In this document: positions 418 to 5,616 of the stretch, in pieces
How positions within the stretch are numbered: position 1 is the stretch's first letter
Layout: each line of letters opens with the position of its first letter
Source: Amylibacter sp.
Lineage (GTDB): Bacteria > Pseudomonadota > Alphaproteobacteria > Rhodobacterales > Rhodobacteraceae
Reading direction: 5' to 3'
Length of the DNA stretch: 37,229 bases
Assembly: GCA_016764475.1 (NCBI GenBank)
Contig: JAESRV010000097.1
Span: 5,766 to 42,994 of the forward strand
Program-made: the position numbers and the translations under genes
The notes under the pieces: generated by a model
The model's database searches: none
What the model was told of the DNA's origin: nothing
Seen by the model: only the letters and a program-made list of their open reading frames with translations

Positions 418-1470
418 ATGACACGCACGATTGTCGAAAGTAAGACACAGACCGCCATTATCGGTTTTGATCAACCGTTTTGTGTGATTGGCGAGCGGAT
501 CAACCCAACAGGGCGCAAGAAACTGGCGGCTGAGTTGGAAGCCGGTGATTTTTCAACCATTGAAACCGATGCAATAGCACAGGTGTTGGCGGGGGCTACC
601 ATGCTCGATATCAATGCAGGTGTGGTTTACAATTCCAACCCCAACCCAAATGAGACAGAGCCGCCCTTGATGACCAAAGTGTTGCAGATTGTGCAAGGTC
701 TGGTCGACATTCCTTTGTGTATCGACAGTTCCGTGCCTGCGGCATTGGAAGCGGGTTTGGCGGCGTGTGAAGGCCGCCCGTTGTTGAATTCGGTAACGGG
801 TGAAGAAGATCGTCTGGAAGCAATTTTGCCGCTGGTCAAGAAATACAACGTACCTGTTGTGGCGATTTCCAACGATGACACAGGCATTTCCGAAGATCCT
901 GAAGTGCGCTTTGCCGTGGCCAAAAAAATCGTGGAACGTGCGGCTGATTTCGGCATTCCGGCCCATGATATCGTGGTTGACCCGTTGGTGATGCCGATTG
1001 GCGCTATGCGCACAGCTGGCCTGCAAGTATTTGAATTGGTGCGTAAATTACGTAATGAGCTGGGTGTGAACACCACTTGTGGTGCCTCTAACATCTCGTT
1101 TGGGCTGCCCAATCGTCACGGTATCAACAATGCGTTTTTGCCGATGGCAATGGCCGCCGGTATGACAAGTGCCATTATGAACCCGCTGCAACTACCAGTT
1201 AGCGCAAAGAAAATTCTGGAAAAAATGGAAGCTTTAGCCGCCGCCGGTATCATCGTGCCAGCTGATATTGACCCCGAGGTTTTCGTGACCCTGATGGGTA
1301 TGGGGTCTACCAAGTACAAATCCGGCTCTGAAATGACAGCCATTCGCGCCGCCAACTTCCTGACGGATAATGATCCGCACGGGGCGGCATGGATTAAAGC
1401 CAACCGCGCCCCGTCTGCGGGTGGTGAAGGGGCTGCGCGCCGTCGCGCAGGTGGACGCCGTCGCGGATAA
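418..1470 (+). CDS. methyltetrahydrofolate:corrinoid (cobalamin) methyltransferase, pterin-binding/DHPS-like fold
   Basis: GERINPTGRKKL, DINAGV, CIDSS, LLNSVTGE, VVDPLV and GASNISFGLPNRH motifs of the MeTr family; Arg/Gly C-terminal tail GGEGAARRRAGGRRRG. Confidence 0.88.
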   Translation: MTRTIVESKTQTAIIGFDQPFCVIGERINPTGRKKLAAELEAGDFSTIETDAIAQVLAGATMLDINAGVVYNSNPNPNETEPPLMTKVLQIVQGLVDIPLCIDSSVPAALEAGLAACEGRPLLNSVTGEEDRLEAILPLVKKYNVPVVAISNDDTGISEDPEVRFAVAKKIVERAADFGIPAHDIVVDPLVMPIGAMRTAGLQVFELVRKLRNELGVNTTCGASNISFGLPNRHGINNAFLPMAMAAGMTSAIMNPLQLPVSAKKILEKMEALAAAGIIVPADIDPEVFVTLMGMGSTKYKSGSEMTAIRAANFLTDNDPHGAAWIKANRAPSAGGEGAARRRAGGRRRG

Positions 1471-1537
1471 TATTCACAATCGGTTGTGTTAGGGATTAGA
1501 CCTTTCAATCTGTGCTCTTTTATGGCCATTTAGGCGA

Positions 1538-2221
1538 ATGAAAAGCACAGATGATACCGCCTTTAAATACTCGGCCATAACCCGCACATTTGCGCGTATC
1601 GCACTTATTGTAGCTATCGTTTTTACCGTGCATCAACTGATGTCATGGCTGCTTGTAAATGTGGAAACAGCCCAGAACACACCTTTGATGATCGGGCTGA
1701 TGTGTCTGGTACTTTTGACCTATATCCTGCTGATCTCAATTCCGTTTGTTCCCGGCATTGAAATTGCCCTGTCCCTAATGGTGGTCCGTGGCCCTGATGT
1801 GGTGATCTGGGTCTATGCGGCAACCATCATGGGGCTGATGCTGGCATTTTTGGCGGGCCGGTATTTATCTTACACCCATTTGCACAACATCTTTCGTGAC
1901 CTTAGGATGAAACGCGCCTGCAAATTACTGGATACAATCCAGCCCTTGTCCCGTAGCGAACGGCTGGACACATTGAAAAACCGTATCCCCGCATTTTTGC
2001 GCCCGTTTCTGATTGAAGGCCGTTATGCGTTGATCGGCATTGTGCTGAACATCCCCGGCAATGCGCTGGTTGGCGGTGGCGGTGGTATATTGCTGGTCGC
2101 AGGCCTGTCACGGTTATTTTCCACAGGCTGGATGTTCATCACTTTAATGATTGCCGTGGCCCCCGTTCCCATTGCCATTTTGGTTTTCGACATTGATCCA
2201 ATGGCATTTTTGCGGGGCTAA
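1538..2221 (+). CDS. membrane protein, TVP38/TMEM64 (VTT domain)-like
   Basis: Multiple hydrophobic segments; VLNIPGNALVGGGGGI resembles the VTT-domain PGN/G-rich motif. Confidence 0.55.
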   Translation: MKSTDDTAFKYSAITRTFARIALIVAIVFTVHQLMSWLLVNVETAQNTPLMIGLMCLVLLTYILLISIPFVPGIEIALSLMVVRGPDVVIWVYAATIMGLMLAFLAGRYLSYTHLHNIFRDLRMKRACKLLDTIQPLSRSERLDTLKNRIPAFLRPFLIEGRYALIGIVLNIPGNALVGGGGGILLVAGLSRLFSTGWMFITLMIAVAPVPIAILVFDIDPMAFLRG

Positions 2222-2366
2222 AGCCCACTACAAACATCATGCAGTCCGGTTTGTGTTGCCACAAATTGGCAATAACATAGGTTTAGCAACACAGAGTTTC
2301 GTAACGATATATTGCATTGATGCGCATGAAAGATTTCACTGGGCAAAACAATTCAGGAGCCTGACC

Positions 2367-2870
2367 ATGACACAGCCTTATAAAATCCCCGATGCCACCA
2401 CGATCGGGCATGTTCATCTTAAGGTCGCAAATATCGACCGCGCATTAAAGTTTTACCAAGACCTGCTGGGCTTTGATATTATCATGCGCAGGGGCGATGA
2501 AGCGGTATTCTTGTCCGCAGGCGGGTACCACCACCATATCGCTTTGAACACGTGGCACAGTAAAGATATGCCGCCTGCCCCCAAGAATGCGGCGGGCCTG
2601 TTTCATATCGCTATTCTTTATCCTACGCGCAAAGACCTATCGGTTATCTTGCGCCGTTTGATGGATGCGGGTGTGACCCTTGAAGGTTCGGCCGATCACG
2701 GCGTGTCCGAGGCCTTATACTTCAATGACCCCGATCAAAACGGCATTGAGCTTTATTGGGACAAGCCGAAATCTGACTGGCCACATTCCGAAGATGGTAT
2801 GCTGACAATGATCAATAAGCCCTTGGATATTGATGGTTTACTGGCAGAAACCGCCCCCGATTTAACATGA
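2367..2870 (+). CDS. VOC family (glyoxalase/extradiol dioxygenase-like) protein
   Basis: IGHVHLKVANIDRALKFYQDLLGFDI ... YFNDPDQNGIELYWD, typical VOC fold. ORF-track start at 2151 trimmed to ATG 2367, preceded by aggagc. Confidence 0.85.
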   Translation: MTQPYKIPDATTIGHVHLKVANIDRALKFYQDLLGFDIIMRRGDEAVFLSAGGYHHHIALNTWHSKDMPPAPKNAAGLFHIAILYPTRKDLSVILRRLMDAGVTLEGSADHGVSEALYFNDPDQNGIELYWDKPKSDWPHSEDGMLTMINKPLDIDGLLAETAPDLT

Positions 2871-2995
2871 CGTTGTAACAAGCTGCACTATATTTTGGTA
2901 TTCAATAAAAATCTTGTGATTGTACGCCGCAGCATGTGGACAAACCCGTGGCAACTTGTGATATTGCAGGCAGATAAAACCAGATGGAGTAGACA

Positions 2996-3412
2996 ATGAA
3001 AATTTTACTTTCAGCACTTGCTGTAATAACACTATTTTCCGGGCAAATTGCCGTCGCACAAGATGTTGATGCTGGAAAAAAGGTTTTCAAGAAATGCAAA
3101 GCCTGCCACAAGGTTGGTGAAAATGCCAAAAACGGTGTTGGCCCAGACCTGAACGACATAGTCGGCCGCGTTGTTGGCAGTGCCGAAGGGTACAAGTATT
3201 CAAAAACCTTCAAAGCCGCGAATGCAGCTGGTTTGGTCTGGGATGAAGCAAGTATTGCAGACTATATTGCAAACCCCAATGATTACATGAAAGCCGCACT
3301 TGATGATCCTAAAGCCAAGACAAAAATGTCGTTCAAGATGAAAAAAGAACAGCAACGCAAAGATGTGGCAGCCTATGTTGCCAGTTTTTCTGCCGCACCC
3401 GCAGCAGACTAA
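2996..3412 (+). CDS. secreted c-type cytochrome (class I, c2-like)
   Basis: Signal peptide, CKACH heme motif, KTKMSFKM distal Met region. Confidence 0.88.
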   Translation: MKILLSALAVITLFSGQIAVAQDVDAGKKVFKKCKACHKVGENAKNGVGPDLNDIVGRVVGSAEGYKYSKTFKAANAAGLVWDEASIADYIANPNDYMKAALDDPKAKTKMSFKMKKEQQRKDVAAYVASFSAAPAAD

Positions 3413-3428
3413 TGATAAAATAAGCCCG

Positions 3429-3459
3429 TTCCAACGCCGATTAACCTTTGGCGTTGGAA
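3429..3459. repeat. perfect 10-bp inverted repeat (stem-loop) downstream of the cytochrome c gene
   Basis: TTCCAACGCC - 11 nt - GGCGTTGGAA; no adjacent U-tract. Confidence 0.7.
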
Positions 3460-3573
3460 ACCGCCCCTAAATTGGCGAATACGCACATGAAAGCGGCGCA
3501 GATACCGCTTTTATATTTGCCATATTCCTGCATATTGCTATCAAAGACAGACGCAAAACAGTGAAGTGGGCAT

Positions 3574-5616
3574 ATGACAAAATCAAACGATCCGTTAGTG
3601 ATATTCACCCCGTCCGGCAAGCGCGGAAATTTCCCTGTTGGCACCCCGATATTAACCGCCGCACGCAAGCTTGGCGTTGATCTGGACAGTGTTTGCGGTG
3701 GGCGCGGCATATGTTCCAAATGTCAGGTGCAGCCGTCATATGGCGAGTTTGCCAAACACGGCGTGACCGTGGCGGCTGATGCCCTGTCAGAATGGAACGC
3801 GGTTGAAGAACGCTACAAATCCAAACGTCATATGCTGGATGGCCGCCGTTTGGGCTGTCAGGCAAAGGTGCAGGGCAATGTGGTGATTGATGTACCACCC
3901 GAAAGCCAAGTGCACAAACAAGTGGTGCGCAAGCGCGCCGAGGCCCGTGATATTACGCTGAACCCGTCGACAAAACTGTTTTATGTCGAAGTGCAGGAAC
4001 CCGATATGCACGACCCGTCAGGTGATCTGGAACGGCTGGTGGCCGCCCTGCGCAAAGACTGGGAATTGCCTGAACTAGAGGTTGATTTTTCAGTTCTGGC
4101 CACTTTGCAATCGCGCTTGCGCAAAGGCGGGTGGAAAGTCACTTGTGCCGTGCATCTGGGTGATGATTACGTCAGCCCGCGCATCATCCATGTATGGTCT
4201 GGTTACTACGAAGGCTCGATTTACGGCATGGCGGTTGATCTGGGATCTACCACAATAGCCGCCCATCTGTGCGATCTGCGCACTGGCGAAGTGGTGGCCA
4301 GCAGTGGTATCATGAACCCGCAAATCCGCTTTGGCGAAGACCTGATGTCACGCGTTTCCTATTCGATGATGAATGAAGGTGGGGCCGATGAAATGACCGT
4401 GGCAGTGCGCACGGGTATTAATGATCTTTTTTCTGAAATATCAGAGATTTCAGGGATTGATTTAAACTTGATTATGGATGTGGTTCTGGTCTGCAACCCC
4501 GTCATGCATCACCTGTTTCTGGGCATTGACCCGTTCGAGTTGGGCCAAGCCCCGTTCGCATTGGCCACGTCCGATGCGGTGTCAACGCGCACCAAAAATC
4601 TGGGCATGAATATCCACCCTGCATCACGCATTTACCTGCTGCCTTGCATCGCGGGGCACGTAGGCGCAGACGCCGCCGCCGTGACCTTGTCAGAGGCACC
4701 TGATAAATCCGAAGATCTGGTTTTACTGGTCGATGTCGGCACCAATGCGGAAATTCAGTTGGGCAATAAAGACAAAGTTCTGGCCTGCTCATCCCCCACC
4801 GGCCCCGCCTTTGAAGGTGCGCAAATTTCCAGTGGCCAACGGGCAGCACCCGGTGCCATTGAACATGTTGAAATTGACCCCGTCACCAAAGAACCGCGTT
4901 TTCTGGTGATCGGTTCTGATCTGTGGTCGGATGAGGACGGTTTTGCCGAAAGTATTGCCTCTTCAGGTATCACCGGCATTTGCGGGTCGGGTATTATCGA
5001 AATGGTGGCAGAGATGCGCATTGCGGGCATCGTTGACGGGCCGGGTCTGATCGGCAGCCCTGAACAAACCGGCACAACGCGTTGTTTTCTGGACGGGCGC
5101 ACCCATTCCTACATGGTTTTTGACGGTTCTGCCGATAGCGGCCCGGTCATCACTGTGACCAACCGCGATATCCGCGAAATCCAGATGGCAAAGGCAGCCC
5201 TTTATTCAGGTGCGCGGCTGTTGATGGACAAGTTCGAGGTCGATACGGTTGATCGCATCGTGCTGGCAGGCGCGTTCGGCGCGCACATCAGCCCGAAACA
5301 CGCCATGGTGCTGGGCATGATCCCCGATTGCGCGCTGGACAAGGTGACTTCGGCGGGTAATGCGGCGGGCACTGGTGCGCGGATTGCGTTGCTGAATACC
5401 GAGGCGCGGGCTGAAATAGAGGAAACCGTGCGTAACATCCACAAGATTGAAACCGCTATTGAGCCGCGTTTTCAAGAGCATTTTGTGAACGCGTCCGCGA
5501 TCCCTAACAGTGTCGAGAAGTTTCCTATATTGGCGACCATCGTGACCTTGCCGGATGTGAACTTCAATACCGGTGGCGATAAAGAAGGTGGTAGAAGGCG
5601 GCGTAGGCGGGGGTGA
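3574..5616 (+). CDS. RACo-like corrinoid activation protein (2Fe-2S ferredoxin domain plus ASKHA/DUF4445 domain)
   Basis: N-terminal CGGRGICSKC...LGCQ [2Fe-2S] motif, AVDLGSTTIAAHL and LLVDVGTNAEI ASKHA motifs; C-terminal tail GGDKEGGRRRRRRG. Confidence 0.88.
   Translation: MTKSNDPLVIFTPSGKRGNFPVGTPILTAARKLGVDLDSVCGGRGICSKCQVQPSYGEFAKHGVTVAADALSEWNAVEERYKSKRHMLDGRRLGCQAKVQGNVVIDVPPESQVHKQVVRKRAEARDITLNPSTKLFYVEVQEPDMHDPSGDLERLVAALRKDWELPELEVDFSVLATLQSRLRKGGWKVTCAVHLGDDYVSPRIIHVWSGYYEGSIYGMAVDLGSTTIAAHLCDLRTGEVVASSGIMNPQIRFGEDLMSRVSYSMMNEGGADEMTVAVRTGINDLFSEISEISGIDLNLIMDVVLVCNPVMHHLFLGIDPFELGQAPFALATSDAVSTRTKNLGMNIHPASRIYLLPCIAGHVGADAAAVTLSEAPDKSEDLVLLVDVGTNAEIQLGNKDKVLACSSPTGPAFEGAQISSGQRAAPGAIEHVEIDPVTKEPRFLVIGSDLWSDEDGFAESIASSGITGICGSGIIEMVAEMRIAGIVDGPGLIGSPEQTGTTRCFLDGRTHSYMVFDGSADSGPVITVTNRDIREIQMAKAALYSGARLLMDKFEVDTVDRIVLAGAFGAHISPKHAMVLGMIPDCALDKVTSAGNAAGTGARIALLNTEARAEIEETVRNIHKIETAIEPRFQEHFVNASAIPNSVEKFPILATIVTLPDVNFNTGGDKEGGRRRRRRG

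Follow-up and report, generated by a model that had tools for sequence, protein, structure and literature searches.

Genes at the locus and their Arg/Gly-rich tails

The window in this study is the whole analyzed stretch of 37,229 nucleotides from Amylibacter sp. (assembly GCA_016764475.1, contig JAESRV010000097.1, positions 5,766 to 42,994). Near its start are the genes for two proteins of corrinoid-dependent methyl transfer, the methyl-tetrahydrofolate (THF):corrinoid methyltransferase MtgD and a RACo/RamA-like corrinoid reactivase (RACo hereafter), both of which end in a short tail rich in Arg and Gly. The features concerned are as follows.

1 to 405, + strand: metF2-like gene, 3' part (methylenetetrahydrofolate reductase-like), whose start is upstream of the window; no Arg tail
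418 to 1470, + strand: mtgD, methyl-THF:corrinoid methyltransferase, 350 amino acid residues (aa); PF00809, NCBIfam PRK07535
1420 to 1467, + strand: Arg/Gly C-terminal tail of MtgD, GGEGAARRRAGGRRRG, disordered in the AlphaFold model
3574 to 5616, + strand: RACo/RamA-like ATP-dependent corrinoid reactivase, 680 aa, with Fer2, RACo linker, middle and C-terminal ASKHA domains
5572 to 5613, + strand: Arg/Gly C-terminal tail of the reactivase, GGDKEGGRRRRRRG

MtgD scored 400 bits against PRK07535 (curated cut-off of 259) and 95 bits against PF00809, and is a Pterin_bind TIM barrel without fusion to MetH. The reactivase possessed all four RACo Pfam domains above their cut-offs and matched PDB entry 3ZYY with an E value of 2e-89. 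Its score against the NCBIfam model of AcsV (NF040756) was 397 bits, below the curated cut-off of 800. By sequence, it is a relative of AcsV, the Wood-Ljungdahl reactivase, and not AcsV itself. MtgD was assigned as an ortholog of SPO1863/PGA1_c16040 on the basis of its family, its context and published work (PMC12478193, PMC5764234). MtgD of the window is the pterin module of a split methionine synthase/glycine-betaine demethylase. This cobalamin-dependent system, of which the window encodes two parts, demethylates compounds related to glycine betaine as well. The family assignments made in an earlier note on this DNA hold, and the system, which that note left unnamed, is a split methionine synthase.

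The Arg/Gly ends that the earlier note had reported for the two open reading frames (ORFs) were confirmed, each directly preceding the stop codon. As also noted there, the Arg codons differed, being CGC/CGT in the MtgD tail and AGA/AGG/CGG/CGT in the reactivase tail, and a similarity at the protein level was supported. Both tails are outside the folded cores, as the PDB homologs stop at about residues 255–274 of MtgD and at residue 646 of RACo. Residues 329–350 of MtgD had a predicted local distance difference test (pLDDT) score of less than 50 in the AlphaFold model and are predicted to be disordered. The AlphaFold model of RACo was poor (pLDDT of 48, seven sequences) and was not used.

Conservation of the MtgD and RACo tails

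The tallies were made after removal of duplicates, with Arg counted in the last 25 residues; the genomes are related, so that the counts do not equal independent events. All 145 MtgD orthologs had at least five Arg (median of 7, minimum of 5), as did 92 of the 95 RACo orthologs (median of 6, three with fewer than five). Of the 74 orthologous systems in which both genes were read, 70 passed a strict test for both proteins; in three of the remaining four, the MtgD tail was weaker. Every MtgD and RACo end read in 80 Rhodobacterales neighborhoods bore the tail. Moreover, the two genes occurred in nearly the same 55–60 of 289 alphaproteobacterial genomes. The ends read cover about 40 alphaproteobacterial families, and the tails were kept although the MtgD cores were only 65–70% identical. 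The linker upstream of the MtgD tail varied in length and sequence, while GGRRR was constant. In a second proteobacterial class, both tails were found in 11 of 11 genomes with orthologs, including one RACo that was only 43% identical, and the only distant paralog found there had no tail. One locus of this class (L315) also encoded a tailed MtgB and an acidic MtgC. The co-occurrence of the tails in alphaproteobacterial homologs, on which the earlier note had staked its proposal, was therefore found, and their absence from, or lack of correlation in, related genomes is excluded. A Fisher co-occurrence test with ad hoc thresholds was dropped because folded helices of paralogs were scored as tails; the strict count and the reading of ends were used instead. 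One genome (G174, locus L132) had two tandem mtgD copies, the second of which is out of frame before the tail.

As a background, the other ORFs with a length of 150 aa or more in 393 kb of this genome were put to a loose test, which asked for five or more Arg and a net charge of +2 or higher within the last 25 aa; 15 of 289 passed. By this measure, a single Arg-rich end is an event of about 5%, but chance does not account for the retention of such ends in both families across hundreds of genomes. The 80 Rhodobacterales neighborhoods contained 133 conserved ORF families; in a ranking of these by Arg in the last 15 residues, RACo was first and MtgD second. The number of Arg was not significantly correlated with G + C (GC) content (rho of 0.08 to 0.22), and the tails were kept at 33–34% GC, largely with AGA codons. 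An origin by GC drift was rejected on these grounds. In addition, the MtgD tails contained 919 Arg and 6 Lys, compared with a whole-protein ratio of 1.9. These comparisons show that the tails are kept by selection and not by GC drift.

The split methionine synthase and its acidic carrier MtgC

In Phaeobacter inhibens, the homocysteine, pterin and B12 parts of methionine synthase are separate proteins, and the system also has a RamA-like ferredoxin-DUF4445 protein and DUF1638 (Price, 2018; PMC5764234). The names MtgB, MtgC, MtgD, and MtgE come from work on Ruegeria pomeroyi, whose mtgC and mtgD mutants lost methionine synthesis and growth on glycine betaine (Mausz, 2025; PMC12478193). Loss of mtgC or mtgD results in methionine auxotrophy in both bacteria (PMC12478193, PMC5764234). 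In the ocean, the split aerobic system is widespread and is expressed (PMC12478193). Its enzymes in P. inhibens and R. pomeroyi are the same as those found here (PMC5764234, PMC12478193).

The genome of the window is a 3.04-Mb assembly of about 95% completeness with masked stretches. MtgD and the reactivase were each present in a single copy. MtgC, DUF1638, and MtgE were encoded together on contig C50, where DUF1638 directly follows mtgC (L218), and five MtgB-like loci were found. The sole PF02607 protein of this assembly was MtgC. Since the genome has one PF02607 corrinoid protein, all client enzymes would use MtgC in common. That both enzymes of the earlier note act on one corrinoid protein is also supported by Price (2018) and Mausz (2025). 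A single-chain MetH was not found in this approximately 95% complete genome, in which the PF02607 search gave MtgC only and PF02574 was limited to MtgE pieces and one small unrelated HMT-like protein. Separate pterin, B12, homocysteine and reactivase proteins were thus present, as expected of a split methionine synthase. MtgD, MtgC, MtgE, MtgB, the RamA-like reactivase, DUF1638, and MetF2 were each found either in this genome or in close relatives of it.

The MtgC orthologs begin M-[SA]-[DE]-rich ... DLDLxxLDDEELVQQMHDDLYDGL. The median net charge of residues 1–40 was -14 in 56 MtgC orthologs vs. -7 in paralogs. The matches of 1Y80, 7XCN, and 4JGI to MtgC begin only at residues 28–31, so that roughly the first 20 residues form an extension. 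The corrinoid protein thus carries an acidic extension, which the earlier note had considered as a complement to the tails. Acidity of the whole protein was rejected as a mark of MtgC, as the paralogs were equally acidic (-22.5 vs. -22). An N-terminal element of the corrinoid protein MtaC aids partner binding, which is a precedent (PMC9842639).

Tails on MtgE and MtgB

If the tails serve docking to MtgC, the remaining MtgC client, MtgE, should also bear one. This tail was predicted from the docking idea ahead of inspection and then found. MtgE of the window's genome ends in GTGDGPIKQPRRNRRRG (..KQPRRNRRRG), and 44 of 45 MtgE ends passed the Arg test; in 42 ends aligned to the end of the core, the median was 6 Arg and the minimum 5. 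The other, unrelated PF02574 protein of this genome had no Arg tail (..AQKFSEKRT). The mtgE gene itself is broken over contig ends (L218:6999-7901 and G000:C88:1-459) and contains masked bases, with its C-terminal tail intact.

MtgB showed the same tail composition at its N-terminus. Four of the five MtgB proteins of the window's genome begin in this way (MSEAATSANSGRRRARGGGGAARRAER, MARRSRAGGRAGNTRRGG, MSDTHIPTRRRRAERGQRK, and MSENKTRRSGGRAARQALR), and MtgB homologs divergent to about 26% identity still start Arg-rich. The check for Arg-rich tails on the methyltransferase that the earlier note had suggested was thus positive for both MtgB and MtgE. The alphaproteobacterial MttB crystal chain 4YYC, presumably from Sinorhizobium meliloti, includes the N-terminal Arg tail. 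The anaerobic MtgB structures 2QNE, which we take to be from D. hafniense, and 9YCE are without most of this stretch. One mtgB with an Arg-rich N-terminus (L221:5440-7220; G000:C68:23718-25204) occupies two overlapping frames, indicating a frameshift or an assembly error. A very divergent MtgB-like protein (L246:1178-2962) has an Arg-rich N-terminus and adjoins a corrinoid protein without an acidic extension, a possible exception to the pattern.

Proteins with and without tails

The tail was found on every class of enzyme that contacts MtgC (MtgB, MtgD, MtgE, and RACo). In the same neighborhoods, its frequency was 100% for MtgD, 97% for RACo, and 98% for MtgE, as opposed to 0% for MetF2, 5% for DUF1638, 3% for PF13769, 5% for DUF5981, and 17% for MTHFR, partners that presumably need no contact with MtgC. 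None of 102 MetF2 homologs had at least five Arg in the last 25 aa. This distribution argues for contact with MtgC and against a pathway-wide mark, a membrane function or general RNA binding. The tail as a mark of the whole pathway was rejected, as MetF2 and other operon partners are without it. Binding of folate polyglutamate was also rejected, as MtgB, MtgE, and the reactivase use no folate.

In eight paralogous alphaproteobacterial systems, whose RACo proteins were about 30–35% identical, neither the MtgD-like nor the RACo-like protein had a tail. The lone flag among these paralogs, RACo of L177, was caused by Arg residues within its folded core. Several alphaproteobacteria (L176-L181, L239, and L240) had a distinct corrinoid system without tails, with an MtgD-like protein ending AWRKGE, a RACo-like protein and a corrinoid protein starting MAELSDIANETIRREIEEYL. 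The exceptions to the tail rule were the second system of genome G271, one masked MtgB (L187), and three RACo proteins whose Arg patch is displaced or degenerate. In the G271 second system (L171/L238, G271:C57), a diverged copy, the MtgD tail is lost and the RACo end is mixed Lys/Arg; the corrinoid proteins nearby are without an acidic extension. It is a natural tailless variant, and the exceptions are informative. Comparison thus showed the tails, their conservation and co-occurrence, their restriction to the enzymes that contact MtgC, and the acidic extension of MtgC.

Docking on MtgC as the proposed function of the tails

With moderate confidence, we propose that the tails would be docking tags that gather the client enzymes on MtgC and so replace the covalent tether of MetH. 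MtgC, a small protein, must be visited in turn by several MtgB proteins, MtgD, MtgE, and the reactivase, all of which are separate proteins. Each client has an Arg-rich tail, short and flexible, at one free terminus (the N-terminus of MtgB and the C-terminus of the others). The tails would attach reversibly to negatively charged parts of MtgC, above all to the conserved acidic N-terminal extension. Docking would raise the local concentration of the clients. In an aerobic cell, this could allow the fragile Co(I)/methyl-Co(III) carrier to move from enzyme to enzyme and to be rescued when it is oxidized. Because four unrelated client families with one partner have one type of tail, and this partner has an acidic extension, reversible electrostatic docking would be the simplest mechanism. 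Binding of the tails to MtgC, the identity of the partner and a kinetic benefit are what we infer from the sequence comparisons.

Several points weigh against this proposal. The paralogous systems represent few clades, so the joint absence of tails from them amounts to few independent events. Paralogous corrinoid N-termini are acidic too (-5 vs. -8 for MtgC in the first 22 aa), and N-terminal acidity is for this reason no sharp discriminator. One MtgB-like gene of the window's genome (L187), which contains masked bases, is without a tail, and the start codons of MtgB and MtgC were inferred. The MtgE of P. inhibens, Bmt, is reported to be active alone in vitro (PMC12366255). Finally, RNA-binding proteins can also have basic low-complexity tails, and the window's genome encodes a helicase-like example (L335:17203-18762), which was assigned by tail composition only.

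Docking to MtgC might be part of a more general, charge-based code, which we put forward tentatively. The acidic B12 carrier would be a hub into which any Arg-tailed enzyme plugs, and methyltransferases for new substrates could join the system by gaining such a tail. When highly concentrated, the carrier and its clients might come together in a reversible assembly or condensate, which would protect Co(I) in aerobes.

Single-chain MetH has the same four chemical modules (pterin, homocysteine, cobalamin and reactivation) on one chain, where covalent tethering makes docking tags unneeded, whereas here the modules are separate proteins. MtgABC of Desulfitobacterium, MttBC/RamA of Methanosarcina and MeTr/RACo of acetogens, all anaerobic, share homologous folds and reactions; unlike the proteins studied here, the PDB homologs are without the tails. 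Polyketide synthases possess docking domains, short terminal elements that join catalytic partners in multi-enzyme assemblies. These are folded or helical pairs, however, while here one charge-based type of tail would be common to four unrelated client families and directed to one carrier. The words "arginine," "tail" and "complex" are nowhere in the main text of Mausz (2025; PMC12478193), and the available part of Price (2018; PMC5764234) describes neither Arg tails nor the acidic MtgC extension. Literature searches for Arg-rich tails on corrinoid enzymes, with subscription papers mostly outside their coverage, gave nothing relevant. These results suggest that the docking code would be undescribed.

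Cobalamin-dependent methyl transfer requires that the modules meet one carrier in turn, for which MetH uses its tether. A common tail on four unrelated families, together with the acidic extension of the carrier, would be a simple and testable answer to how the split aerobic version stays together. The tail could also be a sequence mark for finding further clients of the hub, including many uncharacterized MtgB proteins, and might serve as a plug-in tag in engineered multi-enzyme methyl transfer.

Alternative explanations

It is unlikely that the tails bind a separate adaptor that assembles the clients, for which DUF1638 or the small PF13769 protein would be candidates. DUF1638 is needed for methionine synthesis and has nearly the phylogenetic profile of the RamA-like protein (PMC5764234). 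Its gene directly follows mtgC, PF13769 adjoins metF2-mtgD, and both proteins are net acidic, with medians of -7 and -3, respectively. However, neither is strongly acidic, and neither was seen in all of the loci read. MtgC itself possesses the conserved acidic extension and has to meet each of the tailed enzymes in any case.

We also consider it rather unlikely that the tails only co-localize or concentrate the enzymes by binding to RNA, ribosomes, DNA or polyphosphate. Low-complexity ends rich in Arg and Gly are a typical feature of RNA-binding proteins, the helicase-like protein mentioned above has such a basic end, and the strong preference of Arg over Lys fits binding of phosphate as well as of carboxylate. 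However, the tails are limited to the enzymes that contact MtgC and are missing from MetF2, which is co-operonic and next in the pathway, and an acidic extension of the common carrier is not expected from a general co-localization signal.

Anchoring of the enzymes to anionic membrane lipids, for instance near an electron donor for the reactivase, appears improbable. Although basic disordered tails can bind such lipids, the tails are without amphipathic or hydrophobic residues, MtgB and MtgE have no reason to be anchored, and MtgC bears no such tail. To neutral tails, arising by chance or by GC-rich drift at gene ends, we give almost no credence: about 5% of the other ORF ends pass the loose Arg test and many hosts are GC-rich, but the lack of a significant GC correlation, the AGA-built tails of GC-poor hosts, the constant GGRRR after a variable linker, and the near absence of Lys all speak against them.

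Other genes at the locus

The metF2-like product ends ..GGSAAVPAAQS, and weak similarity to PF02219 was found in its family. A full-length copy is present at L083:5208-6170 and also in L002. Just upstream of the window (L083:4894-5211) is a gene for a PF13769 protein ("Virulence factor"), a conserved neighbor of metF2-mtgD in several families. The Pfam label appears to mislead, and the split methionine synthase may have this protein as an accessory. The gene for a cytochrome c-550-like protein (2996–3412) lies between those for MtgD and the reactivase. Finally, positions 1538–2221 encode a membrane protein without a Pfam match, which is conserved after mtgD in some Rhodobacterales related to Amylibacter.

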